A stretch of DNA of 23,783 nucleotides from a virus. Positions 1,496 through 23,504 of the stretch are shown here, in pieces. The notes beneath the pieces were generated by a model. The model was not told the origin of the DNA. It saw only the letters and a program-made list of their open reading frames with translations, and ran no database searches. Each line of letters begins with the position of its first letter. Position 1 is the first letter of the stretch. Made by a program: the position numbers and the translations under genes. The stretch is taken from the IMG/VR virus record IMGVR_UViG_3300023184_000519, positions 1 to 23,783 of that record; one strand, 5' to 3'.

Positions 1496-1779
1496 TGGCA
1501 ATTGGTAATCCAGGCAGTCCGCTATGTGCGGAACTAAACCGCTTAGCAAATGGTGGGACTTATCCAACTCGTGATACTTTCAAAGATTCACAAGGCGCAG
1601 CCAATGCTTGGGCTGGACTAACTGGTGCAGCAGTGCGTGGTGTAGTCGGTGCCCTGAATTACAAAGTAAGCACATCAAGGACACCTGATGCTTTCAAAGA
1701 CATTGATGGCGTATGTAATGAACTTGCTGGAACTACTGGACTTGCAGCACCTGAGGCACTAAGGAGAATATCTTCGTGA
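1495..1779 (+). CDS. Small virion-associated protein with an internal duplication
   Basis: This encodes 94 residues. Two halves share a pattern: LNRLANGGTYPTRDTFKDSQ (about 14-33), followed by GAANAWAGLTGAA, is echoed by SRTPDAFKDIDGVCNELAG, followed by TTGLAAPEAL, in the second half. Both keep FKD-x2-G-x2-N-x-(W/L)AG. This suggests a duplicated small helical unit. Similar short proteins sit next to head-tail connector genes in other phages; their function is unknown to me. It starts TAATG after the glycosyltransferase-like gene and overlaps the next start by four bases (GTGA). Confidence 0.65.
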   Translation: MAIGNPGSPLCAELNRLANGGTYPTRDTFKDSQGAANAWAGLTGAAVRGVVGALNYKVSTSRTPDAFKDIDGVCNELAGTTGLAAPEALRRISS

Positions 1780-2714
1780 CAACTACCCTAAGCAATATGA
1801 TTGATGAAGTACTTATCAATCTTGCAGGTTATACATTTCAACAGGACCGTGCTACCTACCTCAAGACTGCTATTGCAACAACGACTTCTTCTGCAGCATC
1901 CCCATTAGTTGTATCTCTTGGTTCAACTGACAGTGTGGGCAAGGGAGTCATTGAAATTGATGAAGAACTTATGTGGGTTGATTCTTATGACCGCATTTCT
2001 AACACTGCAACAATCGCTCCTTATGGTCGCGGTTACTTAGGAACAACTGCAGCGACTCACACCGCAGATGTCAAGGTTTCAATCTCACCAACGTTCCCGC
2101 GCTTTAGCGTCAAGCGAGCAATCAACGATACAATCCGCTCCCTTGGAGCAAACATCTTTGCAGTCAAGTCAACATCATTTACTTTCAATGCAGCCATATC
2201 CACCTATGCTTTCGCTAACTTGAACATCAAGAATATCTTGACAGTTTCGTGGCAAAGCATTGGACCTTCTAAGGAATGGATTCCTGTACGCAAATGGGAC
2301 TTTGATTCTATTGCAAACCCTGAGGCATTTGGATATGTAACTGGAACAGATACTGTTCAAACTATTACTCTTGGTCAAGCGCCTATCTCAGGGCGCACAG
2401 TCAAGGTTACATATGCAACAGACCCAGAAGCGTTTACAACTAATGCCCAAGACTACTCAACACAAACTGGACTACCAGAATCGACTCGTGATGTGACAAT
2501 CCTTGGAACAGCCTATCGCCTGCTCTCATTCCTGGACCCAGCACGTGCTGCACAGGTTAGCCCACAGGCTGATGAGACAGATAGCAAGCGCCCATACGGT
2601 GCATCACAAAGTGCAACTAAACAACTTTATGCTCTATACACGCAACGTCTCAATGAAGAAACAAAAGCACAACAGCAAAACTACCCACCCCGTGTTCACT
2701 TTAGTCGTCGATAA
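1776..2714 (+). CDS. Head-tail connector / tail adaptor-like structural protein
   Basis: This encodes 312 residues from a GTG start overlapping the previous stop (GTGA), with AAGGAG upstream. The N-terminal part has short beta motifs around IEIDEELMWVDSYD and APYGRGYLGTTAATH (about 60-100), which recur in phage neck/adaptor proteins. The middle contains an FPRFSVKRAINDTIRSLG helix. The C-terminal part is helical and ends in a polar tail (LNEETKAQQQNYPPRVHFSRR region). Its location just before the tail fibre gene supports a role linking head and tail or tail and fibre. I cannot assign a named family from sequence alone. Confidence 0.6.
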   Translation: MTTTLSNMIDEVLINLAGYTFQQDRATYLKTAIATTTSSAASPLVVSLGSTDSVGKGVIEIDEELMWVDSYDRISNTATIAPYGRGYLGTTAATHTADVKVSISPTFPRFSVKRAINDTIRSLGANIFAVKSTSFTFNAAISTYAFANLNIKNILTVSWQSIGPSKEWIPVRKWDFDSIANPEAFGYVTGTDTVQTITLGQAPISGRTVKVTYATDPEAFTTNAQDYSTQTGLPESTRDVTILGTAYRLLSFLDPARAAQVSPQADETDSKRPYGASQSATKQLYALYTQRLNEETKAQQQNYPPRVHFSRR

Positions 2715-2723
2715 GGAACTTCA

Positions 2724-4940
2724 ATGACAGTTAGAAAATACTCCTCACGCGCTCAACAGACAACCTTGAGTGCTCCCATCACATCGACTGCTACTACAAT
2801 GTCTGTCGTCAATGGTGCCTCTCTTATGGGTGGCAAGACACTTACCAGCACACAGACTTACACAGTTGTCATTGACCCAGATACAGCACTTGAAGAAATT
2901 GTAGATATTACTGTATACACAACTGGTAATACACTAACAATTACTCGTGGTATTGATGGTCCAACTCCTGGCACAGGCTCTGCTCACTCTGCTGGTGCGG
3001 TAGTTCGACATATGGCAATTGGTCGAGACTATCAAGAAGCCAATGACCATCAAGAAGGAACTCTTGCAGCACACGCTGCAACAACATCTACTCAACTTCG
3101 TGGAGTTATATCCGATGAAACAGGTACTGGCTCTTTAGTATTTGCAACTTCCCCTACTCTTATAACTCCAGCATTAGGCACTCCAGCATCTGGCGTACTT
3201 ACTAATGCAACTGGACTTCCCCTGACAACTGGTGTAACTGGAACTCTTCCAGTAGCCAATGGTGGAACTGGTGTAACAACATCAACTGGTTCAGGTGCAA
3301 CTGTGTTATCTACTAGCCCTACTCTTGTAACTCCAGTATTGGGCGTTGCCACAGCAACTAGCATCAACGGAACAACAATTCCAACAAGTGCAACTCTTAT
3401 CAAAACAAGTGATACTGGAACAGTAACTGGCACAATGATTGCCAGCGATACTATTGTAGATGCTGATATCAATGCATCTGCAGCAATTGCTAAAACTAAG
3501 TTAGCACTTACTGGTGCAATTACATCAACTGACATTGCTAACGATACAATTCTAAATGCAGATATAAATACTGCAGCAGCAATTGACTGGACAAAACTTG
3601 CTATATCATCTACCGTCTCATCAACTGAGATTGGATATGTTGATGGAGTAACATCTGCAATTCAAACTCAAATTGATTCTAAGTTAGCAACTGCAACCGC
3701 TAGTAGCACATATGCTCCTTTGGCTAGTCCAGCATTGACTGGAACTCCAACCGCACCAACTGCAACTGCTGGTACAAGTACTACTCAGGTAGCAACTACA
3801 GCATTTGTAGGGACTGCAGTTACTAACCTTGTTAGTGGTGCTCCTGGAGCACTTGATACTCTCAATGAACTAGCAACTGCTTTAGGTAATGATGCTAACT
3901 ATTCAACAACAATAACAACTGCTCTTGCTGGAAAACTACCTCTTGCTGGTGGCACTATGACTGGTGCTATTGCTATGGGTACTAACAAGATTACAGGTCT
4001 TGGAACTCCTACTGTATCTACAGATGCTAGCACTAAAGGCTATGTAGATAGCATTACAACTGCTCCTAGCAATCTAACTGGTGTTATTACATCTGTCGGT
4101 CCAGCAACTTCCATAGCCTCTCAGACAGGTACTGGTACTAAGTTTGTAGTAGATACTAGCCCAACTCTTGTTACTCCTGTACTTGGTGTGGCTACAGCCA
4201 CATCTATCAATGGCACAACTATACCATCAACTAAGACTCTAGTAGTAACTACAGATAAACTATCTGCCCTTGCTGCTACAACTTCTGCAGAACTTGCTGG
4301 AGTTATCTCTGATGAGACTGGCTCAGGTGCTTTAGTCTTTGCTACTTCACCAACTTTGGTAACACCTACACTTGGCACTCCTGCATCTGGAACACTTACT
4401 AACACAACTGGATTACCAATCAGCGGTTTAGTTGCTTCAACTTCTGCAGCCCTTGGCGTAGGTAGTGTTGAACTTGGACACGCTAGTGATACAACTATTG
4501 CTAGAGTCTCTGCTGGTGTTGCATCTATTGAAGGTGTCAACATTGTTACAACTTCATCAACAGATACTCTTACAAATAAAACTCTTACTAGCCCAGTAAT
4601 CAACACACCTAAAATTGCTTGTACATATACAGCCAAGACCGCTGCCTATACATTTGCATCTGGCGACGAAGGCAACATCTTCTCAATGAACAACGCTGCA
4701 TCTGTGCAGTTCAATATCCCTACTGATGCCACATTCAACTTTGCAGTTGGTACTGAATTTACAGTATTTTGGATTACAGGTGCAGGTCAACCAACAATCG
4801 GTGCAGTAACTCCTGGCACAACAACTGTTATCTCAACAGGTGCTACAAGTGCTACACCAAAACTACGTGTAGCCAACTCTGGTGCAACTTGCAAGAAACT
4901 TGCTGCTAATAGTTGGATAGTGTTTGGAGACATCGCCTAA
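2724..4940 (+). CDS. Repeat-rich tail fibre protein
   Basis: This encodes 738 residues, dominated by Thr/Ser/Ala/Gly. The N-terminal part (1-125) contains a [20 protein letters not shown]-like module (about 70-95) seen in phage tail proteins. The shaft then holds repeated blocks: [10 protein letters not shown]...TPASG...TGLPL (127-167 and again 527-567) and [20 protein letters not shown] (198-217 and 479-498). Two classic fibre motifs follow: [20 protein letters not shown] (341-360) and [20 protein letters not shown]...DASTKGYVD (409-442). The last 120 residues form a distinct beta-rich end domain. It is predicted to be a trimeric fibre that contacts the host surface. It is followed directly (TAATG) by three tandem appendage proteins. 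Confidence 0.85.
3102..3224 (+). repeat. Intragenic fibre repeat, copy 1
   Basis: This encodes fibre residues 127-167, [20 protein letters not shown] followed by a [10 protein letters not shown] segment and TGLPL. A second copy lies exactly 400 residues further on. The protein copies are close to identical but the codons have diverged, which points to an older duplication kept by selection on the protein. Confidence 0.75.
4302..4424 (+). repeat. Intragenic fibre repeat, copy 2
   Basis: This encodes fibre residues 527-567, [20 protein letters not shown] followed by [10 protein letters not shown] and TGLPI. It is a near match to residues 127-167 of the same protein and marks a repeated shaft module. 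Confidence 0.75.
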
Positions 4941-5494
4941 TGCCAATGCTTGGAATTATGGCTTCTGGTATATCTGGCAATCTGTGGGCACCTGCTGGTG
5001 CCTATGACTCTATCTCTACTGCTACGGTGACAACTGGTGGTACTGCAAGTATTACTTTTTCATCTATTCCTGCTACTTATACTCATTTGCAAATTAGAGC
5101 ATTAGGTATGTTTACAGGTACAGTCGGTGTTGGAAACATTGCTTTCAATGGCGATAATGCAAGTGGTAACTATTCATATCATTATCTTCTTGGTGATGGC
5201 AGTTCTTTGCCAGGTGCTGGTTCTGGTGTTTCTCAAAACCAAGGAAGGTTTACTGCTGCTGCTGGAACGACCCCATCTTATCCAACGACTATGGTTATGG
5301 ATATTTTGGATTATGCCAATACAAATAAATATAAAACTTCAAGACATTTATTTGCTTGGGATGGCAATGGTAGCGGTTACGTTGAATTTGATTCAAATAG
5401 TTGGCGTTCTACAAATGCAATTTCTAGCATTGTTCTAACACCTGCAAACACTTTTGCTATTTATACAAGCGTTGCCCTCTACGGAATCAAGTAA
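4940..5494 (+). CDS. Tail appendage protein, paralogue 1 of 3
   Basis: This encodes 184 residues. I place the start at the ATG at 4940, which overlaps the fibre stop (TAATG), rather than at an upstream in-frame ATG inside the fibre gene. The domain has a recognisable frame: TTGGTASITFSSIPATYTHL near the start, a middle with NGD-x-N-YSYHYLLGDG, a strand pattern around NTNKYKTSRHLFAW, and a final TSVALYGIK. The next two genes repeat the ITF-(S/N)SIP-x-YT-x-L opening and the SLYG ending. These are probably beta-sandwich appendage or receptor-binding subunits (inference from position and composition). Confidence 0.7.
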   Translation: MPMLGIMASGISGNLWAPAGAYDSISTATVTTGGTASITFSSIPATYTHLQIRALGMFTGTVGVGNIAFNGDNASGNYSYHYLLGDGSSLPGAGSGVSQNQGRFTAAAGTTPSYPTTMVMDILDYANTNKYKTSRHLFAWDGNGSGYVEFDSNSWRSTNAISSIVLTPANTFAIYTSVALYGIK

Positions 5495-5504
5495 GGACTA
5501 GACA

Positions 5505-6023
5505 ATGGGTGTCACATACACAACCGCAGCAGCAAACACATACGTTCCGATAGCGACTTACACCGTACCAAGTGATACTACTTCCTATACTTTTACAAGT
5601 ATCCCATCAACTTATACAGACCTATATTTAGTAGCCGCTTTTGCTACTGACGCTGCCTCATCAATCAATCTAAATGTTGGCAGTGGTTCAATAGACACAG
5701 CCTCAAATTTTTCTTGGACTTACTTACTTGGAAATGGCACTGCTGCAAGTTCAAGTAGAGGCTCTGCTGATACTCGTATTTTTAGCGGTGCTACAAACTC
5801 CGTAAATGGACAATGTAATATGGAAATTAGTTTCCAAAATTATTCAAATGCAACTACATATAAAACAACTCTTAGCAGATTCAACGATACTACTCAAGGC
5901 ACTTATGCAACTGTAGGTCTATGGCGCAACACTGCCGCAATCAACCAAATTAGAATTTTAGCCAATGGTAATAATTTGAAATCTGGTTCAACCTTCTCAC
6001 TCTACGGAATCCTAGGAGCATAA
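5505..6023 (+). CDS. Tail appendage protein, paralogue 2 of 3
   Basis: This encodes 172 residues and starts 10 bases after the previous gene, with AAGGA upstream. It has the same domain plan as its neighbours: SYTFTSIPSTYTDLYLVAAF near the start, WTYLLGNGTAASSSRGS in the middle, NYSNATTYKTTLSRF, INQIRILANGNNLKSGSTFS and the terminal SLYGILGA. It is a single-domain member of the local family, a likely virion appendage subunit. I know of no established function for the family. Confidence 0.7.
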   Translation: MGVTYTTAAANTYVPIATYTVPSDTTSYTFTSIPSTYTDLYLVAAFATDAASSINLNVGSGSIDTASNFSWTYLLGNGTAASSSRGSADTRIFSGATNSVNGQCNMEISFQNYSNATTYKTTLSRFNDTTQGTYATVGLWRNTAAINQIRILANGNNLKSGSTFSLYGILGA

Positions 6024-6025
6024 CA

Positions 6026-7366
6026 ATGGCTAATAAAAATTATGTTTTACTAGAACGCGTTGAAGTAGGCGAGGCTGGTGCATCCAGCATTACCTTCAAC
6101 TCAATCCCTCAGACTGGCTATACCGATTTGAAGGTTGTATCTAGTCTTCGCGGTGATGCAAATACAGTTGATATGACTTATACCTTCAATGGTCTAACAA
6201 CTAATCAATCTGGAAGATTACTTAGAGGAAATGGCACTGCAGCAGCATCAGGAACAGACACGCTTATTTATGGTCTGCAAAATGCAAGCACTTATACAGC
6301 AAGTACCTTTACTAATTCAGAACTTTATATTCCTAATTATACTTCTGCTAACTATAAATCTATGTCACAAGATGGTGCTACTGAAAACAATGCCACTCTT
6401 TCATACACTTATTTAGTAGCGCAACTTTGGTCTGCTACTGCTGCAATTACATCTATTGGTTTAGTTGCTGGCAGTAGCGGTAAATTTGTTCAGTATTCAA
6501 CAGCATCCCTATACGGTCTTGCAGCCGTAGGCACTACACCAACTAAGGCACCAAAGGCTACTGGCGGTTCAATCATCCAGACCGACGGTACTTATTGGTA
6601 CCACGCCTTCCTTGCCTCTGGCACATTTACTCCAGCCGTAGGGTTGAGTTGTGATGTGTTGGTAGTAGCAGGTGGTGGTGGTGGTGGTGGTAGAAATGGC
6701 GGTGGCGGTGGAGCAGGTGGTTATCAAACATTTTCATCACAATCTGTTGCAGCATCTGCACAAACAATTACTGTAGGTAGTGGTGGAGCAGGTGGATTAG
6801 GTTCAACTGGAACTGTTGGTAGCAATGGTACTAACTCATCATTTGCCGCACTTACTGCATCAGTCGGTGGCGGTGGTGGTGCTGCTCGTTCTGCAACTCC
6901 TGGACAGTTAGGTGGCTCTGGTGGTGGTGCATCAACTGGTAACACATTTGGTGCTGGTACTGCTGGACAAGGTTATGCAGGTGGCGCACAAGGTACAAAT
7001 ATTTCAGCAGGTGGTGGTGGAGCAGGTGCAGTAGGTAATGCTGGTGATACTGCAAGCAACGGTAACGGTGGTATTGGTTCTTTCACAGCAATATCTGGTG
7101 GAGCAACAACTGCTGTTGGAGTTTTATCTGGCGGTAACTATTACTTTGCTGGTGGTGGCGGTGGTGGTACTGAAACTTCTGCATACAACAATGGTGCTGG
7201 TGGTACTGGTGGCGGTGGAGCAGGTTCTAAGAACTCAACTGTTGCAACAAGTGGAACTGCTAATACTGGCGGTGGTGGCGGTGGTGGTGCTTACAATAGT
7301 AATACATCACCATCAAACGGTGGTATAGGTGGTTCAGGAATTGTCATTATTCGGTATGCGGTCTAA
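6026..7366 (+). CDS. Tail appendage paralogue 3 fused to a glycine-rich tip domain
   Basis: This encodes 446 residues. Residues 1 to about 170 match the two preceding proteins (SSITFNSIPQTGYTDLKVVS ... TASLYGLAAV). A linker follows, rich in Lys/Pro/Thr, then a YHAFLASGTFTPAVGLSCDV strand and a long Gly-rich region (about 205-446) built of VVAGGGGGGG, GGGGGAGGY, VGSGGAGG and similar motifs, ending GGSGIVIIRYAV. Gly-rich domains of this kind, ending in GIVIIRY, occur at the tips of phage and bacterial adhesins. T4-type gp38 adhesins show that polyglycine loops can present host-range loops. I infer this is the receptor-contacting member of the trio. Confidence 0.75.
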   Translation: MANKNYVLLERVEVGEAGASSITFNSIPQTGYTDLKVVSSLRGDANTVDMTYTFNGLTTNQSGRLLRGNGTAAASGTDTLIYGLQNASTYTASTFTNSELYIPNYTSANYKSMSQDGATENNATLSYTYLVAQLWSATAAITSIGLVAGSSGKFVQYSTASLYGLAAVGTTPTKAPKATGGSIIQTDGTYWYHAFLASGTFTPAVGLSCDVLVVAGGGGGGGRNGGGGGAGGYQTFSSQSVAASAQTITVGSGGAGGLGSTGTVGSNGTNSSFAALTASVGGGGGAARSATPGQLGGSGGGASTGNTFGAGTAGQGYAGGAQGTNISAGGGGAGAVGNAGDTASNGNGGIGSFTAISGGATTAVGVLSGGNYYFAGGGGGGTETSAYNNGAGGTGGGGAGSKNSTVATSGTANTGGGGGGGAYNSNTSPSNGGIGGSGIVIIRYAV

Positions 7367-17585: not shown

Positions 17586-18322
17586 AAACTATAGTCTGCA
17601 TTTCCGATTTACAGGTACCATATCACGATGTGGAAGCCACTAAAGCCGTTGCGCGTTTCATCAAATCATACCAACCAGATACCGTCGTATCTTGTGGAGA
17701 TGAAATGGATATGCAGACTATCAGTAAGTGGAGTAAGGGAACTGAACTAGAGTTTGAACGCTCTATTGGTAGAGATAGGGACCTTACTCGTCAAGTCCTA
17801 TATGATTTGACAATTGAGCACATGGTGCGTAGCAATCATACAGATAGATTGTTCAACACTGTTGCTATGAGAGCCCCAGGATTGCTTGGGCTACCAGAAT
17901 TACAATTAGAAAACTTTCTTGGACTCAAAGAGTTAGAAATTCAGTATCACACTGACCCATACGAACTAGCCCCTGGCTGGTTGCTTATGCATGGTGATGA
18001 AGGCAACGTACAACCCACCGCAGGAGCCACAGCACTTGGTTTAGCCAAGCGTAGCGGTATGTCTGTAGTGTGTGGACATACCCACCGCATGGGTCTTACT
18101 CACCACACTCAGAGTTATCGTGGCGGTAAGCCAAAGACTATCTGGGGCATGGAGTTAGGCAACCTAATGGATTACCGTAATGCTAAGTATATCAAGGCTG
18201 GTCTATTCACTTGGCAACAAGGATTTGGAATCCTGCACGTTGACGGTAATACAGTGGTACCACAACTCGTACCAATTGTAAACAATTCATTCACAGTAGA
18301 GGGTAAGACTTGGAAATGGTAA
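17582..18322 (+). CDS. Calcineurin-like metallophosphoesterase
   Basis: This encodes 246 residues. All five metal-binding motifs are present: Asp9 with His15 (SDLQVPYHD), GDEMD (39-43), Asn85-His86 (RSNHTDR), His137 (MHGDEG) and GHTHR (165-169). Members hydrolyse phosphomono- or diesters with two metal ions. Phage versions are common in replication operons; proposed substrates include nucleotides or DNA 3' ends, not settled. It is flanked by short overlaps on both sides. The motif set is intact, so an active enzyme is likely. Confidence 0.85.
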   Translation: MKTIVCISDLQVPYHDVEATKAVARFIKSYQPDTVVSCGDEMDMQTISKWSKGTELEFERSIGRDRDLTRQVLYDLTIEHMVRSNHTDRLFNTVAMRAPGLLGLPELQLENFLGLKELEIQYHTDPYELAPGWLLMHGDEGNVQPTAGATALGLAKRSGMSVVCGHTHRMGLTHHTQSYRGGKPKTIWGMELGNLMDYRNAKYIKAGLFTWQQGFGILHVDGNTVVPQLVPIVNNSFTVEGKTWKW

Positions 18323-19029
18323 TGAACTGGGAGCGCATTGAACCTTGGGATTATATTGTAGTCTCCGTTGCAGCGGAGTACCACAAGAAGTATGCCATGG
18401 TTGAACTAGATGATATTAAGCAATCGCTCTATCAGTGGTTCCTAGAACATCCAAAGAAACTAGATGAGTGGGAAGCGATTGGTAATAAAGATGCCAAGAA
18501 TCTCATCTATCGTTCACTTAGAAATCAAGCATTAGATTATTGTCAGCGATGGAAAGCAAAGTCTATTGGTTACGAAGTAACTGATTTATTTTATTACACT
18601 CCTGAGATGATTGAAATCATGTTGCCAGCAGTACTACGTGGTGAACTAAGTGTGTTGCCAGTATTAAATCTTGGCGGTGCAGGACGACCACCAGCACCAT
18701 CAGAGGGTGGTAACGTGATGGCAATGATGGTCGAAATTGATAATGCATACAATAAACTTAGCGCAGAAGATAAGACTGTTCTGTTCTATAAGTATGCAGA
18801 ATCCCTGGACTTTGGTGCTATTGCATTAGAGATGGAACTTGGCAGTGAAGATGCTGCACGTATGCGTCATAACAGAGCCATAAAGAAATTGATTACTCGC
18901 ATTGGTGGATTCAGACCTTTCCTAGATAAAGATATCGTGGATAAACCTGAGAATCCAAGCAACGAGAGCGAATCCGTACCAGATACTGAGCAAGAAAGCG
19001 ATAGCCCCAATGGGGCTGATGAAAATTAG
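18322..19029 (+). CDS. Sigma-factor-like DNA-binding regulator
   Basis: This encodes 235 residues from ATG at 18322 (TAATG overlap); ATGs at 18310 and 18316 are alternatives. The N-terminal helices (DIKQSLYQWFLEHPKK ... NLIYRSLRNQALDYCQRWKA) recall sigma region 2 or its phage relatives. Residues of about 145-200 (YNKLSAEDKTVLFYKYAESL, then FGAIALEMELGSEDAARMRH) form a region-4-like helix-turn-helix. The tail is acidic and low-complexity. Similar proteins in actinophages are annotated as sigma-like or helix-turn-helix proteins. As the last replication gene it may switch on late transcription (inference). Confidence 0.65.
   Translation: MNWERIEPWDYIVVSVAAEYHKKYAMVELDDIKQSLYQWFLEHPKKLDEWEAIGNKDAKNLIYRSLRNQALDYCQRWKAKSIGYEVTDLFYYTPEMIEIMLPAVLRGELSVLPVLNLGGAGRPPAPSEGGNVMAMMVEIDNAYNKLSAEDKTVLFYKYAESLDFGAIALEMELGSEDAARMRHNRAIKKLITRIGGFRPFLDKDIVDKPENPSNESESVPDTEQESDSPNGADEN
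19003..19017. terminator. Possible hairpin at the convergent gene ends
   Basis: AGCCCC (19003-19008) and GGGGCT (19012-19017) pair perfectly around AAT, 12 bases before the end of the sigma-like gene and about 34 bases beyond the end of the converging minus-strand gene. No T run follows on either strand, so it is a weak terminator candidate. Confidence 0.3.
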
Positions 19030-19050: not shown

Positions 19051-19464
19051 TCACCAGTTTTCTAATGCATCGTGCTCAGCGATTTCCCTTTCACGTGCAG
19101 TCTTGATATGTTCCAGCAATACCGCTGGTGTAACAAGGTATCCCCTCGATGGATTCGGTGGGATATTGCACGTAATAGGTCTTGTTGACTCCCATACTAC
19201 TTCTTTGAGGCGATGCGTAGGCACTATCAGTACTGAATCTTCAAGCACGAATGCCCAATGCGTAGCCTTGCTAACACGTATCCCTGACGGCTCCCATGAC
19301 TGAGATGCTTGGTAATAGCACTCAGTTTCGATGTAGAGATTTCCAGTTTCGTGCCAACGTCTATCTGTCTTTACTTCTACTGTATCAAGAGAAAGCAAGT
19401 CTGCTACCTTGCTCTCCCCTGTAAGTCCAGCGCGTAGGTCTAAGTCCCAGTTACTATCTTTCAT
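19051..19464 (-). CDS. PD-(D/E)XK nuclease-like protein
   Basis: This encodes 137 residues. The pattern GLTGESKVADLLSLDTVEVK with Glu17, Asp27 and Glu30-x-Lys32, then RRWHETGNLYIETECYYQ (Glu46), fits a small PD-(D/E)XK nuclease fold. The C-terminal part (SGIRVSKATHWAFVLEDSVL ... PPNPSRGYLVTP) resembles phage proteins of this type. DNA cleavage or end processing is expected; the substrate is unknown. It is the last gene of the leftward module, overlapping the tiny gene upstream (ATGA), and converges on the sigma-like gene with 21 bases between the two stops. Confidence 0.65.
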   Translation of the reverse strand: MKDSNWDLDLRAGLTGESKVADLLSLDTVEVKTDRRWHETGNLYIETECYYQASQSWEPSGIRVSKATHWAFVLEDSVLIVPTHRLKEVVWESTRPITCNIPPNPSRGYLVTPAVLLEHIKTAREREIAEHDALENW

Positions 19465-19550: not shown

Positions 19551-19727
19551 TTAGCCTCCCGTACTATAGAAGCCAGTGCCATTAAACTTGACTGGCGTTG
19601 CATTGATTACTCTACGAGTAAGTATACCACAGTATTGACAATTTGGAAAGTTGTCACGCTCATCGACATGTCGTGGGTGGTCTTCAGATGTTCCACAACT
19701 ATCGCATTTATATTCGTAGTTAGGCAT
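19551..19727 (-). CDS. FmdB-type zinc ribbon protein
   Basis: This encodes 58 residues starting MPNYEYKCDSCGT, with the second pair in NCQYCGILTRRV and the ending VKFNGTGFYSTGG. This is the FmdB / CxxC-CxxC family pattern: PxYEYxC-x2-CG, then CPxCG, then a V-F-G-x-GFY-T end. Members are small zinc ribbons proposed to act in regulation; no biochemical role is settled. GGAGGGAAG precedes the ATG. A copy of the 17-bp palindrome lies 20 bases upstream of the start, so this gene probably has its own regulated promoter. Confidence 0.8.
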   Translation of the reverse strand: MPNYEYKCDSCGTSEDHPRHVDERDNFPNCQYCGILTRRVINATPVKFNGTGFYSTGG

Positions 19728-19746
19728 AGGCTTCCCTCCGATTGAG

Positions 19747-19763
19747 TGCCGTATTATACGGCA
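19747..19763 (-). promoter_or_regulatory. 17-bp palindrome, site 1 (upstream of FmdB-like gene)
   Basis: TGCCGTATTATACGGCA on the plus strand; on the minus strand it reads with a TATAAT core at 19758-19753. A start about seven bases beyond would give a leader of roughly 19 bases with the GGAGGG ribosome-binding site. It is one of five copies. No good -35 is visible. Confidence 0.75.
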
Positions 19764-19790
19764 GTGTAGGTTTGTGTCGGCGGATGTTCA

Positions 19791-20171
19791 TTAGTACCAA
19801 CCCTTTCTCTCGTGGAACTTTAAAGCCTTGCATGGTGAGCCGTACCTGTAGATAATATAGGCAAAGCCTCTATCTATCTGTTGTGTTGCTGGTATGTGAG
19901 GAGACATCCCTAATAGTTGCGGTATCCCTCCTGCATTCTTGCCCATTACCTTGACCTTGTTATAGGCATTACTGCGCCAGTTAGATTCCTTAGTCCATAA
20001 TTTTTCTAGACATTGGAACTGCATATCATTATACCTGAGCATTACATCTCTGGCATAAGCCTTGCTATCATGTATTGTCCATACACGTTTCTTAGGTGCC
20101 TCAGATTTCCCAGTATGGGTAACCCCAAAGAATGTAAAGATTAGAATAAGAAACAACATGAATTTTTTCAT
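19791..20171 (-). CDS. Secreted lytic-transglycosylase-like protein
   Basis: This encodes 126 residues from the ATG at 20171 (GGAGAG upstream; TAATG overlap with whiB). The N-terminus is a signal peptide or anchor (MKKFMLFLILIFTFFGVTHT). The domain FQCLEKLWTKESNWRSNAYN has the catalytic Glu62 of SLT-type lysozyme-fold enzymes; AGGIPQLLG (80-88) and QQIDRGFAYIIYRYGSPCKA, ending KGWY, match the actinobacterial transglycosylase type seen in aggregation-promoting factors. It should cut glycan strands of peptidoglycan outside the membrane. It is remote from the lysis block and in an accessory or early module, so entry-, wall- or exclusion-related use is possible (inference). Confidence 0.75.
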   Translation of the reverse strand: MKKFMLFLILIFTFFGVTHTGKSEAPKKRVWTIHDSKAYARDVMLRYNDMQFQCLEKLWTKESNWRSNAYNKVKVMGKNAGGIPQLLGMSPHIPATQQIDRGFAYIIYRYGSPCKALKFHERKGWY

Positions 20172-20509
20172 TATCTCTCCAACCAAGGTAGTAGTCTATA
20201 GAACATATCTATTGCAATCGCCTCTGCTCTGCTGGCTGAAAAGTGTCGACGTTGGATGCCACTAGATAGTAATCGTTCTCCTGCCATTGTGCCTCCCCAT
20301 ATACCATACGATATATTCTCGGGCTTCATACCTTCTTCATAGCAGTCATCTATCTTAGGACATGTCCTGCATATAGATAGTGCTTCGTTTATTCCAGTAG
20401 CAAGTGCTACATTCTTTGCGATACTCGGTCGATGTTCAGGTTGCTCGGGAAACCAGAGGTCTGGATTCCTATGCCCCGTACAACTCCCAATGATTACATC
20501 GGTAGCCAT
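20171..20509 (-). CDS. WhiB-family iron-sulfur transcription factor
   Basis: This encodes 112 residues from ATG at 20509, preceded by GGAAGGGAAG; an upstream in-frame ATG lies in the ribosome-binding region and is not preferred. The four cluster Cys are present: one in GSCTGHRNPDLWFP and the CRTCPKIDDC triad (C-x2-C-x5-C). GIWGG, the family turn, follows. WhiB proteins carry a 4Fe-4S cluster and bind the primary sigma factor to alter promoter choice. Phage WhiB proteins, such as that of mycobacteriophage TM4, can repress a host whiB and cause exclusion. This is the best evidence for an actinobacterial host. It overlaps both neighbours (TAATG). Confidence 0.9.
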   Translation of the reverse strand: MATDVIIGSCTGHRNPDLWFPEQPEHRPSIAKNVALATGINEALSICRTCPKIDDCYEEGMKPENISYGIWGGTMAGERLLSSGIQRRHFSASRAEAIAIDMFYRLLPWLER

Positions 20510-20655
20510 TACTTCCCTTCCTTTTTGCATTGTTCACAATATCTAAATCTCTCATCAAAGATATAGATGTCATTATCGCAGTAAAAGCAGGAACTAAGGA
20601 ATGGTTCATCGTCTAGTCCCCTTGCTGTGTTATCCTCTAGTACAGGTTCACTCAC
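20509..20655 (-). CDS. 48-residue zinc-ribbon protein
   Basis: This runs from GTG at 20655 (TAGTG overlap; GGGAG upstream) to TAA overlapping the whiB ATG. An acidic N-terminus (SEPVLEDNTARGLDDE) leads to SSCFYCDNDIYIFDERFRYC and EQCKK, that is two CxxC pairs, a treble-clef or ribbon zinc site. Its overlap with both neighbours argues that it is expressed. No family is recognised; the module has several proteins of this plan. Confidence 0.65.
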   Translation of the reverse strand: MSEPVLEDNTARGLDDEPFLSSCFYCDNDIYIFDERFRYCEQCKKEGK

Positions 20656-20738
20656 TATTCTCCCTCATAACCGTCGTCGCAAGCCTTACAAGACTTGGAA
20701 TTGTCCATACAAAATGTGCAGATAATTACTTCACTCAT
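20655..20738 (-). CDS. 27-residue Cys-rich micro-protein
   Basis: ATG at 20738 (or 20741) to TAG at 20655-20657, which overlaps the next GTG. The product is MSEVIICTFCMDNSKSCKAC followed by DDGYEGE, with two CxxC pairs (7/10 and 17/20) close enough to hold one zinc ion or a cluster. It overlaps the upstream gene's end by eight bases. Very short, but the stop/start chaining on both sides matches the rest of the operon. Confidence 0.5.
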   Translation of the reverse strand: MSEVIICTFCMDNSKSCKACDDGYEGE

Positions 20739-20898
20739 CATCTAGCCCTGCCTCACTTCTGTCCTCAGGTTTAGGTGGGTATGAGTTACTCATCTCTATC
20801 TCTCTTTGATTCTTGCGGTAGCACTGCTCACACCATACTAGGTTATGAGAGTATACTACCTCAATCGTCTGCTTCTTGCAAATCGAACATGTGAACAT
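20731..20898 (-). CDS. 55-residue zinc-ribbon protein
   Basis: ATG at 20898 has a strong GGAGGTGGAG upstream and overlaps the preceding gene by 38 bases in another frame. FTCSICKKQTIEV (CxxC) and VWCEQCYRK (CxxC) form a zinc-ribbon pair, followed by a polar tail (SYPPKPEDRSEAGLDDE). The plan matches the 48-residue protein two genes further on (CxxC ... Y/W-C-EQC), suggesting a local duplication. Function unknown. Confidence 0.6.
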   Translation of the reverse strand: MFTCSICKKQTIEVVYSHNLVWCEQCYRKNQREIEMSNSYPPKPEDRSEAGLDDE

Positions 20899-21046
20899 TG
20901 TTCTCCACCTCCTTCAACCTGTCTATGTAATCAAACAGAGCGTCGATGTCGTCACCCACATATTCAGAGTCCATTAGAAACTCTAAGTATGCTTCAAGTG
21001 ATTCAACGTCAAGCAAGTCCCAATCTTTTCTTTCTAGGTATTCCAT
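20861..21046 (-). CDS. 61-residue acidic protein
   Basis: The ATG at 21046 overlaps the previous TAA (TAATG) with AAGGAGG upstream, the best ribosome-binding site in this module. The product is acidic and helical: MEYLERKDWDLLDVESLEAY, then SEYVGDDIDALFDYIDRLKE. It has no Cys and no membrane segment. Palindrome site 2 lies 42 bases upstream, within the preceding gene, so this gene may head a sub-operon leading to the zinc ribbons and WhiB. No family is recognised; acidic DNA mimicry is a bare possibility. Confidence 0.65.
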   Translation of the reverse strand: MEYLERKDWDLLDVESLEAYLEFLMDSEYVGDDIDALFDYIDRLKEVENNVHMFDLQEADD

Positions 21047-21177
21047 TATGCCACCTCCTTCAATAGCAATCGTAGTTGCGCTACCTTTGCCGTATTATAC
21101 GGCACGGTATTGTTAGTAAGCAATTGCAGATAGTCGATAAGGACTTCACGCAATTGTTCCTTCTGTTGTGTGGTCAT
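21046..21177 (-). CDS. 43-residue helical protein
   Basis: The ATG at 21177 has AGGGGATG upstream and lies one base after the preceding TGA. The product is TTQQKEQLREVLIDYLQLLT followed by NNTVPYNTAKVAQLRLLLKEVA. The segment VPYNTA is encoded by palindrome site 2, so this protein's C-terminal region is constrained by that DNA element. Two helices joined by the palindrome-coded turn are likely. No known family. Confidence 0.55.
   Translation of the reverse strand: MTTQQKEQLREVLIDYLQLLTNNTVPYNTAKVAQLRLLLKEVA
21088..21104 (-). promoter_or_regulatory. 17-bp palindrome, site 2 (inside the 43-residue gene)
   Basis: TGCCGTATTATACGGCA on the plus strand; the minus strand has a TATAAT core (21099-21094). 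It lies 42 bases upstream of the ATG at 21046. TTGCTT 18 bases upstream of the core is a partial -35. It shows that the element is kept exactly even within coding sequence. Confidence 0.7.
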
Positions 21178-21178
21178 A

Positions 21179-21415
21179 TCATCCCCTATTATATGCTGGT
21201 TGGTGTATTGGATAAATTGTTGCATTGAGCAATTGACTTGCCCATACCATAGCCTCATCCGAGGTTGGAAATAATCCGTAAAGAATTATTCCGTTTGTGT
21301 CGGTCAAGGTCGATGTGACCCACCCGACAATTTCCTGTCCGTCGAATGGTGGAATCACATCTATCTTGCCGTATAATACGGCACTGTTATTTTTTGAAGT
21401 CGAAGTAGTTGTCAT
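21179..21415 (-). CDS. Small conserved-looking phage protein, start uncertain
   Basis: This encodes 78 residues if the ATG at 21415 is used, 59 if the GTG at 21358 is used. The core is GQEIVGWVTSTLTDTNGIIL, then LFPTSDEAMVWASQLLNATI and the ending YPIHQPAYNRG, a compact alpha/beta pattern also found in short actinophage proteins. With the ATG start the N-terminus (TTTSTSKNNSAVLYGK) overlaps the amidotransferase gene by 29 bases and is coded by palindrome site 3. With the GTG start the palindrome lies eight bases upstream as a promoter. The latter would fit the other sites, but the ribosome-binding site is poor either way. Confidence 0.6.
   Translation of the reverse strand: MTTTSTSKNNSAVLYGKIDVIPPFDGQEIVGWVTSTLTDTNGIILYGLFPTSDEAMVWASQLLNATIYPIHQPAYNRG
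21367..21383 (-). promoter_or_regulatory. 17-bp palindrome, site 3 (after the amidotransferase gene)
   Basis: TGCCGTATAATACGGCA on the plus strand, the only copy with the central base reversed, so the minus-strand core is TATTAT. It lies three bases past the stop of the amidotransferase gene and eight bases ahead of the GTG at 21358. The flank CACTGTT is shared with site 4. Confidence 0.7.
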
Positions 21416-22214
21416 AGTACCACACTTTATCCTTTCCTTGTCGTTTTTCCATAGAGGCTCTGTCTTTCTCAGGCGTCCAGCACATGCAACCTTCGCCGTA
21501 TGTACCAGAGCAATCATAGCAGGTAGTACAGAATTCGCAATAGTAAGGATTGGCATCCTCATACGGTACTGCTAAGCAACTAGGACATGCATAGTCGCTC
21601 TCTGTATCATCCTTGATAAGCGTTGGCATGCCTACATACTTTGACCACATGCTCTCCTTGTAAGTGTCGTTACTCCACCACATGCCATCGTTATCCCAAT
21701 GCCCTAGATTCTCGTTGATAATGTAACAGTAAGCCTCAGCCTTAGGGTCTACGGTAAGCACTGCAATCTTGCTACCACTAGACCACTTGTTGAGTATTTT
21801 CCATACATTATCATCGTCGAGAGATGTAACGCCACCTAACTTAGGTAACGTATCCTCAGCGAATACCCTGCTATCACTGCGCTTATCTGAAGCGTGAATA
21901 GTGATATCTAGTATGCCATTGTGAGCAAGGTAAGTGCGGTCATCGCCACCGACCTTGAAAGGGTGGCAGTTGTCGTCATTCTTTACGCCATGCGTAGCGT
22001 ATCTAGCATGGAACATAGCATAACTCTTTGGATATTCCTTACGTACTTCTAGGAACTCCTTGATTATTTTCTTGGCACTCATGCCACGACCAGTAATAAT
22101 CTTATCACCAGCGATAACGGCATAGCCGAAACCGTGCGGATTATTACAAGAGGCACACTCCAAGTCTTTCTTACGGGGCGTTGAGTCTGGCGAGCAGACA
22201 ACTAATAAACACAT
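21387..22214 (-). CDS. Class II glutamine amidotransferase with Cys-rich C-terminus
   Basis: This encodes 275 residues. Cys2 is the N-terminal nucleophile (MCLLVV; the Met must be removed). Other class II (Ntn) signatures are NPHGFGYA (25-32), FHARYATHG (68-76), HPF (84-86), AHNG (97-100) and SDSRVF (113-118). It should release ammonia from glutamine. The C-terminal 70 residues carry CPSC, CEFCTTCYDC and CMCW, a zinc-binding cluster not part of the standard domain. There is no synthetase domain in the same chain, so ammonia or the amide must pass to a partner, most simply the amidoligase encoded just upstream. Palindrome site 4 lies 16 bases before its ATG, with AGAAAAGAG as ribosome-binding site. 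Confidence 0.8.
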   Translation of the reverse strand: MCLLVVCSPDSTPRKKDLECASCNNPHGFGYAVIAGDKIITGRGMSAKKIIKEFLEVRKEYPKSYAMFHARYATHGVKNDDNCHPFKVGGDDRTYLAHNGILDITIHASDKRSDSRVFAEDTLPKLGGVTSLDDDNVWKILNKWSSGSKIAVLTVDPKAEAYCYIINENLGHWDNDGMWWSNDTYKESMWSKYVGMPTLIKDDTESDYACPSCLAVPYEDANPYYCEFCTTCYDCSGTYGEGCMCWTPEKDRASMEKRQGKDKVWYYDNYFDFKK

Positions 22215-22230
22215 TTCTTATACTCTTTTC

Positions 22231-22247
22231 TGCCGTATTATACGGCA
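22231..22247 (-). promoter_or_regulatory. 17-bp palindrome, site 4 (amidoligase/amidotransferase junction)
   Basis: TGCCGTATTATACGGCA on the plus strand; minus-strand TATAAT core at 22242-22237. It supplies the amidoligase's stop codon (TAA within GTATAATAC) and sits 16 bases ahead of the amidotransferase ATG. A start near 22230 would make a short leader with the ribosome-binding site. Confidence 0.75.
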
Positions 22248-23464
22248 CTGTTGGTTAGTTGGATGTTACATCTCGATATACGTGCAACGAGACGTGGGTA
22301 CAGAGATTCATTCTCTGAAATATATTGTATGAACGCAGACTGGGTGAGTGCGCCATCTATGACCTGCTTGACACTAAGGGTACGGGTATACTCAACACTG
22401 GCATGTGCTAAGTCTAATTGTGCTTTGACTGTATCAGAATTGACAGAGCCTCTAAAGATTCTCATCTCTAGCGTCTCACGATTCTGCATATTTACTGCTG
22501 AGTAACGGTCAGTCTCACGACCATGCTCTATCTTATCTTTGAACGTGCGTTTTCTGGTGAACTGATAGTTGCCAGTCTCTTGGTCAGTTACACGTTCACC
22601 GTCCTCATCTCTGACCCATTCGTGCTTGATAATATCATCAAACTTAGCCCACCGTTCAGAGGAACGACCTGCTAGAGCCTCATAGAATGGTTGATTAGAG
22701 TAGACAAGGTTGAGGAATCGGTGCATGTGCGCACCACTACCAAACCCTGTGCGTGAGATATGGATATGAAGTCCACACGTAGTAGCGTCCCAAGATTTTA
22801 CTCTGTACTCAGTGCGTAATTTCTCCAGTGTCTCCCATAACTCATCGGCTTCATTCATATAGAAGTCATGACTCATAGGATGTGTGACTATCTCGAAACC
22901 ACACGATAGTGAGCCGTCATTCTTTAGATAGGCTAACTCTAGTGGCTCTAAACGTTGAGCATAGGTTGAGGATTCCTGCCTATTTCTAGGCGCTTCTACC
23001 TCAATCTCTATACCAAAGTATAGTTTCTCATTCCTATCTGTGGAATGAAAGATAGCGTCAGGACGATATGAGTAGTCATGGATAATTCTTGTATTATCCT
23101 CATAATCATCATCATGCCCTGTATCGCAACCGTCGAAATAGTAAGCGTCGCAATCGTCGCAATAGTATGCGTCTTGTATGCAATTCTCACAATATGCGCC
23201 ATGTCTATCCTCTGGCATAGTAATTGAGTCGGTTGTAAATTCTTGGCAACCGTCGCAGTAATTAGCATGAGAATCAGTGCAATCTATACACCACATAACA
23301 TAGTTATCTACGGTGTTCCAATCGTCATCTATTGTGCCAACCGTTTCACAACGGTCACACATTCTCATGCAATCTTGGCAGACAATCTCATCACTTCCAG
23401 TGGTGAGTTCATCGCCTTCAACTACATCAGTGCCACAGATAGTGCACTGTATTTCAGTTTCCAT
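22238..23464 (-). CDS. Zinc-knuckle amidoligase (Amidoligase_2-like)
   Basis: This encodes 408 residues. The first 115 hold seven CxxC pairs (7/10, 29/32, 36/39, 59/62, 70/73, 92/95, 102/105), a tandem zinc-knuckle or ribbon array. The second part matches the amidoligase (COOH-NH2 ligase, glutamine-synthetase-like fold) family: FGIEIEVEAP (150-159), KNDGSLSCGFEIVTHP (181-196) and CGLHIHISRTGFG (230-242), then a helical C-terminal region. Such enzymes join a carboxylate to an amine using ATP. Known family members occur beside class II amidotransferases and are predicted to modify peptides, proteins or metabolites. The substrate here is unknown. GAAAGGAAAG precedes the ATG, with palindrome site 5 upstream. 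Confidence 0.8.
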   Translation of the reverse strand: METEIQCTICGTDVVEGDELTTGSDEIVCQDCMRMCDRCETVGTIDDDWNTVDNYVMWCIDCTDSHANYCDGCQEFTTDSITMPEDRHGAYCENCIQDAYYCDDCDAYYFDGCDTGHDDDYEDNTRIIHDYSYRPDAIFHSTDRNEKLYFGIEIEVEAPRNRQESSTYAQRLEPLELAYLKNDGSLSCGFEIVTHPMSHDFYMNEADELWETLEKLRTEYRVKSWDATTCGLHIHISRTGFGSGAHMHRFLNLVYSNQPFYEALAGRSSERWAKFDDIIKHEWVRDEDGERVTDQETGNYQFTRKRTFKDKIEHGRETDRYSAVNMQNRETLEMRIFRGSVNSDTVKAQLDLAHASVEYTRTLSVKQVIDGALTQSAFIQYISENESLYPRLVARISRCNIQLTNSAV

Positions 23465-23487: not shown

Positions 23488-23504
23488 TGCCGTATTATAC
23501 GGCA
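23488..23504 (-). promoter_or_regulatory. 17-bp palindrome, site 5 (upstream of amidoligase)
   Basis: TGCCGTATTATACGGCA on the plus strand; minus-strand TATAAT core at 23499-23494, 23 bases between the element and the ATG at 23464, with the ribosome-binding site in that leader. It is a true intergenic copy and the clearest promoter-like placement. No good -35 is visible. Confidence 0.75.

Follow-up and report, generated by a model that had tools for sequence, protein, structure and literature searches.

What would a phage do with an amidoligase and a glutamine amidotransferase (GATase) that are encoded side by side and both carry cysteine-rich extensions? The question is raised by the window, by which we mean the whole 23,783-bp stretch of DNA analysed, IMG/VR virus record IMGVR_UViG_3300023184_000519, whose genes include those for tail-fibre, endolysin, replication, sigma-factor and WhiB proteins. 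The answer that we favour, with a probability of roughly 0.5, is that the two proteins are the subunits of one glutamine-dependent enzyme that amidates its target (or ligates an amine to it) and bears LIM-like docking modules. The sequence-only reading had placed both ORFs between 21387 and 23464, with the ligase upstream, and had quoted a series of motifs; the coordinates, on the minus strand, and all the motifs are exact. A gap of 23 bp separates the ligase from the GATase that follows it. The features of the two genes are:

22238-23464, minus strand: amidoligase gene, 408 aa (ORF; PF12224 score; predicted GS/GCS fold by AlphaFold and Foldseek)
22382-23023, minus strand: ligase catalytic domain, residues 148-361, with ExE, DGS, HxH, R and ExR (invariant positions)
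23114-23446, minus strand: ligase N-terminal zinc region, residues 7-117, with four putative zinc-finger-like units (Cys conservation, spacing, weak Foldseek matches)
21387-22214, minus strand: predicted class II glutamine amidotransferase gene, 275 aa (ORF; phrog_25883; fold)
21669-22214, minus strand: glutaminase domain, residues 1-182, with C2, R71, N99, G100 and D114 (conservation in close and distant sequences; pLDDT)
21480-21587, minus strand: GATase C-terminal eight-Cys module, residues 210-245 (conservation; low model confidence)

WhiB genes are a marker of Actinobacteria phages. A 752-aa protein of the window is 70% identical to its counterpart in OX376640/OX376641 (LanE43-AprE7 and LanE43-AprF5), names that fit phages E7 and F5, the first cultured phages infecting freshwater 'Ca. 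Nanopelagicales' (PMC10202952). Many window genes, WhiB and sigma included, have counterparts in E7 and F5, and the amidoligase-GATase pair has none. Because of the WhiB gene and the kinship to E7/F5, the host is probably a freshwater actinobacterium; Nanopelagicales count among the most abundant bacteria of fresh waters. The record of the window is incomplete, and its pair-bearing relatives span 38-42 kb, near the full size of E7/F5.

The ligase matches Pfam Amidoligase_2 (PF12224) with 48.7 bits against a curated cut-off of 22 (E=1.2e-12), and this cut-off is exceeded in 21 of the 22 pair-bearing records, the remaining one having a truncated ORF. The motifs FGIEIE (residues 150-155), DGSL (183-186) and CGLHIHIS (230-237) lie in a catalytic domain with 23 invariant positions across seven sequences that are 22-55% identical to the window; ExE, DGS, HxH, R and ExR are invariant in the sequence alignment of seven distant ligases. 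The AlphaFold model is confident (pLDDT 88), and its top PDB matches by Foldseek are gamma-glutamylmethylamide synthetase, Dop, plant glutamate-cysteine ligase, YbdK and glutamine synthetases, all pointing to the glutamine-synthetase/glutamate-cysteine-ligase (GS/GCS) fold. The Foldseek probability for this superfamily is 0.9-1.0 at 9-14% identity, and since the whole-model TM-score is only ~0.3 we place the predicted fold at the superfamily level only. Searching PDB sequences with the ligase profile yielded chance matches only.

The downstream protein matches phrog_25883, the family of Marvin gp106 (E=6e-36), and its Pfam scores fall just under the cut-offs (GATase_6 24.9 against 27, GATase_4 20.9 against 23). 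Yet the fold agrees, and our assignment as a putative class II (Ntn) glutamine amidotransferase is made from structure and residues. The model (pLDDT 75, mostly >85 in the glutaminase domain and low in the zinc region) resembles GlmS/GFAT glutaminase, EgtC and PurF by Foldseek, with GlmS/GFAT glutaminase domains as the best matches. Cys2, HARYATHG (residues 69-76) and AHNG (97-100) are in place; C2, R71, N99 and G100 are invariant in seven GATase sequences and D114 is conserved in a larger alignment. We take these five residues to correspond to C1, R73, N98, G99 and D123 of the GlmS glutamine site. The predicted structures of both proteins agree with the two enzyme families first recognized from the letters, and the predicted active-site residues are retained across the lineage.

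The similarity to EgtC raises another possibility, in which the ligase would build an amide conjugate, gamma-glutamyl or other, from which the GATase-fold protein, acting as an amidohydrolase, would later remove a part, leaving a small metabolite or a reversible tag. Actinobacterial ergothioneine synthesis uses EgtA, a glutamate-cysteine ligase, and downstream EgtC, a GATase-fold hydrolase. It offers a precedent for such a combination, and the Foldseek matches include glutamate-cysteine ligase for the ligase and EgtC for the GATase. We nevertheless find this scheme unlikely, because the GATase is best matched by GlmS/GFAT glutaminase domains, no further metabolite-pathway gene neighbours the pair and zinc docking modules are better suited to a macromolecular target.

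Kinship of the GATase with LtsA had also been evoked. LtsA is an AsnB-type enzyme bearing a C-terminal synthetase domain; the protein of the window is only 275 aa long, has GATase families as its sole Pfam matches and lacks an asparagine-synthetase domain, which rules out an LtsA/AsnB-type enzyme. The pair might still amidate the cell envelope, either at the stem peptides of peptidoglycan or at another carboxylate, for instance to exclude other phages; the target would then differ from that of the enzyme we favour, with the same chemistry. Actinobacteria do amidate their peptidoglycan, and MurT/GatD is a different, class I-type amidotransferase. Cell-wall modification against superinfection was suggested for such genes in phiEco32, as quoted in a passage of PMC10580990. 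Yet an envelope target appears rather unlikely for a pair that is homologous neither to LtsA nor to MurT/GatD and whose ORF calls have no notable secretion or membrane feature, so that the precursor would need to be cytoplasmic.

What sets the pair apart is its cysteines. Ligase residues 7-105 hold seven CxxC pairs, exactly as counted by the sequence-only reading, but the count was incomplete: C113/H117 forms an eighth pair, and most relatives have C-x2-C there. The CPSC/CEFC/CYDC/CMC cluster of the GATase was correctly described at residues 210-245. The 15 Cys of the ligase zinc region are 99-100% conserved in 71 close sequences, with the exception of C73 (86%), and all eight Cys of the GATase C-terminus are conserved in 100% of 78 close sequences. 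With such conservation, and the E-value of the Amidoligase_2 match, neither the zinc Cys nor the ligase family can be attributed to chance.

The spacing is equally regular. In 69 of 71 ligases it runs C-x2-C, ~18, C-x2-C, 3, C-x2-C, ~19, C-x2-C, 7 and continues C-x2-X, ~18, C-x2-C, 6-7, C-x2-C, 7, C-x1-3-C/H, a LIM-like spacing that suggests four zinc-finger-like units, paired into two LIM-like doubles. The GATase tail, C-x2-C-x12-C-x2-C-x2-C-x2-C-x7-C-x-C in 78 of 78 close sequences (three with x14), reads as one shortened LIM-like double zinc finger, and Marvin gp106 has the same eight-Cys module with slightly shorter loops. By Foldseek, the ligase N-terminus weakly matches the LIM domains of LMO2 and PINCH (probability 0.7-0.8, E 0.05-0.15). 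These domains share with the window modules the order and spacing of tandem double zinc fingers, but they have His where the window modules have Cys, and the ligase linker has three residues and the GATase loops are shorter. The Pfam LIM model matched neither protein at E up to 1, and we do not count them as true members of the LIM family.

LIM domains usually bind proteins, hence docking, either between subunits or on a protein target, is the natural reading of these modules, and the target of the pair is probably macromolecular, a protein. That the modules assemble glutaminase and amidoligase on one and the same host protein, which the pair would then amidate, is a more specific proposal that we regard as doubtful; were it true, it would be a glutamine-fuelled, phage-encoded protein modification, undescribed so far. 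Zinc modules on both enzymes seem to be new, as far as work other than the Marvin paper and Iyer et al. 2009 is concerned: in the papers examined that link amidoligases with a zinc ribbon, amidoligases come up only through citations of Iyer et al.

Linkage of the two genes was examined in two overlapping samples, largely of the same contigs, seeded by the GATase and by the ligase (alignment scan). The GATase scan gave 80 viral loci at 61-73% identity, and, apart from those cut by a contig end, every locus (78/78) has the ligase directly upstream. Conversely, among the 80 ligase-seeded loci the GATase is directly downstream wherever there is room (76/76). The intergenic gap varies from -32 to +37 bp across pair loci. 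A third sample was picked via the neighbouring sigma gene and not via the pair: both genes are found in 19 loci, in 3 more the GATase lies where the contig ends, and 22 loci with at least 5.2 kb of room, including E7 and F5, have neither. Across the wider phage family the two genes are therefore either both there or both missing, and the neighbourhood survey that the sequence-only reading had called for upholds the functional pairing: within the lineage the homologues do co-occur.

Tandem pairs extend beyond this lineage to 19 records of cluster S mycobacteriophages, MW202733, MEP402 and the gut contigs MT839723 and MT835576. The coupling is not universal: in Clostridioides phage AR1086-1 no GATase was recognised among the tested ORFs adjacent to the ligase, and in Bifidobacterium phage BP677P1, which has the GATase, none of the ORFs tested was recognised as a ligase. 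The amidoligase locus of AR1086-1 (4743-6932) adjoins a gene for an RlaP-like RNA-repair polymerase and has a kptA (RNA 2'-phosphotransferase) gene nearby. The only cellular match is a 3.3-kb contig of a Rhodobacteraceae MAG with both genes (1701-3328), perhaps phage DNA that was binned as bacterial.

The surroundings of the pair bear on the remaining alternatives. Its conserved neighbours encode WhiB, a transglycosylase-like protein, a sigma factor, a metallophosphoesterase and small proteins, and a search beside the pair for a conserved third gene or precursor peptide revealed no obvious substrate among them. GGACT (PF06094) and ATP-grasp_4 (PF13535), the two families searched for among the optional cyclotransferase and peptide-ligase partners of Iyer-type systems, are absent from the window and 21 related pair-bearing records. 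As auxiliary metabolic genes, the pair could shift the use of glutamine, glutamate or ammonia by the host with no specific macromolecular target, a role proposed for similar genes of ZRK32 in a passage of PMC10945688. But ZRK32, as described there, adds a glutathione synthase and a gamma-glutamylcyclotransferase, whereas GGACT and ATP-grasp_4 were not found with the window pair, and such a role would leave the conserved zinc modules unexplained, which makes it very improbable. A still fainter prospect is that the substrate is the phage DNA, with a modified base that the pair would amidate or aminate. Other phages do have hypermodified bases bearing amines or amino acids, and some zinc fingers bind DNA, but no thymidylate-synthase-family gene was found in the 22 pair-bearing records.

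In the two-subunit enzyme that we favour, the N-terminal Cys2 of the GATase would hydrolyse glutamine and free ammonia, the GS/GCS-fold ligase would activate a substrate carboxylate using ATP and Mg2+ and couple it to this ammonia or to another amine, and the LIM-like modules would join the subunits and/or dock the macromolecular target, most likely a host protein. Both activities, the transfer of ammonia, complex formation and the protein target are what we infer from the families, folds and conserved catalytic residues of the two proteins, their strict adjacency in this lineage and their presence or absence as a unit. That the two genes stand in tandem, and in the same order, in Marvin, MW202733, MEP402 and gut phages argues for it too, as do the LIM-like modules on both enzymes here, reduced in Marvin, and the lack of another peptide-ligase partner (PF06094, PF13535) in the 22 pair-bearing records. 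Against it stand the single genes of AR1086-1 and BP677P1, the sub-cut-off Pfam scores of the GATase and the GATases paired in MW202733, MT839723 and MEP402, which lack the zinc module.

The early region of the window has other traits that should not be confused with those of the pair. A palindrome had been noted before each of the two genes:

23488-23504, no strand: 17-bp palindrome ahead of the ligase (TATAAT-containing copy of a phage-wide repeat)
22231-22247, no strand: 17-bp palindrome ahead of the GATase (shares 10 bp with the 3' end of the ligase ORF)

Both are there, but a role specific to the pair does not hold. The palindrome, TGCCGTATWATACGGCA, which contains TATAAT, has five copies in the leftward region at 19.7-23.5 kb (19747-19763, 21088-21104, 21367-21383, 22231-22247 and 23488-23504) where 0.05 are expected, and it occurs in just 7 of the 80 loci carrying the pair; several relatives have 3 to 9 copies. 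It is thus a repeat that belongs to the window phage and not to the pair, and it probably serves as an operator or promoter; the phage encodes its own sigma factor (18310-19029). A minus-strand gene of unknown function at 19051-19464 (phrog_13596), nuclease-like by eye, occurs with the pair in 20 cases, both are missing in 18, and each occurs alone in 2. These exceptions both ways rule out strict tracking, and the co-occurrence could be a lineage effect or functional. Finally, the region generally abounds in small zinc-ribbon-like proteins: WhiB aside, tiny CxxC-rich ORFs lie on the minus strand at 19551-20913, including an FmdB-like one (19551-19727) and others near 20509-20664, 20655-20741 and 20731-20913.

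Amidoligases with GATases have been published before, in accounts of OM43 phages and more than 30 metagenomic relatives (PMC10580990), LUZ24-like phages (PMC3890496) and phage ZRK32 (PMC10945688). Passages of these papers suggest cell-wall change with superinfection exclusion, secondary metabolites or nitrogen metabolism as roles, and report no demonstrated product. In the OM43 phages MEP401 and MEP402 (PMC10580990), the two families are adjacent in the order of the window, but at 22-30% identity, with no zinc module on the GATase and at most remnants on the ligase. In LUZ24-like phages (PMC3890496), StenR_269, RHph_N3_13 and ZRK32 (PMC10945688), amidoligase and GATase share one early block; the window pair likewise lies in one block, as in Iyer-type systems. 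Those multi-gene systems add ATP-grasp, COOH-NH2 ligase, GS-like or cyclotransferase genes, whereas the window has two genes only. The GS/GCS ligases GmaS, Dop, glutamate-cysteine ligase and YbdK share the predicted fold of the window ligase, but act on other substrates and lack LIM-like modules. Another close parallel is the cluster S mycobacteriophage Marvin, where gp105 and gp106 are an amidoligase and then a GATase in tandem, at ~28-34% identity to the window; its GATase has the same eight-Cys module, and its ligase has a smaller but Cys-rich N-terminus with fewer Cys pairs and a long extra C-terminus. Public records of cluster S label the amidoligase (Marvin gp105; 4627-5988 in the locus that we compared) 'glutamine amidotransferase domain protein', apparently a misannotation, since gp105 aligns with the amidoligase. 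The window pair is a zinc-bearing, minimal variant of the published phage gene pair. Amidoligase-GATase pairs recur among phages of very different hosts, and in this lineage the system is pared to two genes whose presence and absence always coincide, with conserved docking-type zinc modules on both proteins. It is thereby a compact system in which to look for the target; Marvin, which infects the laboratory host M. smegmatis, offers a zinc-bearing version open to testing.
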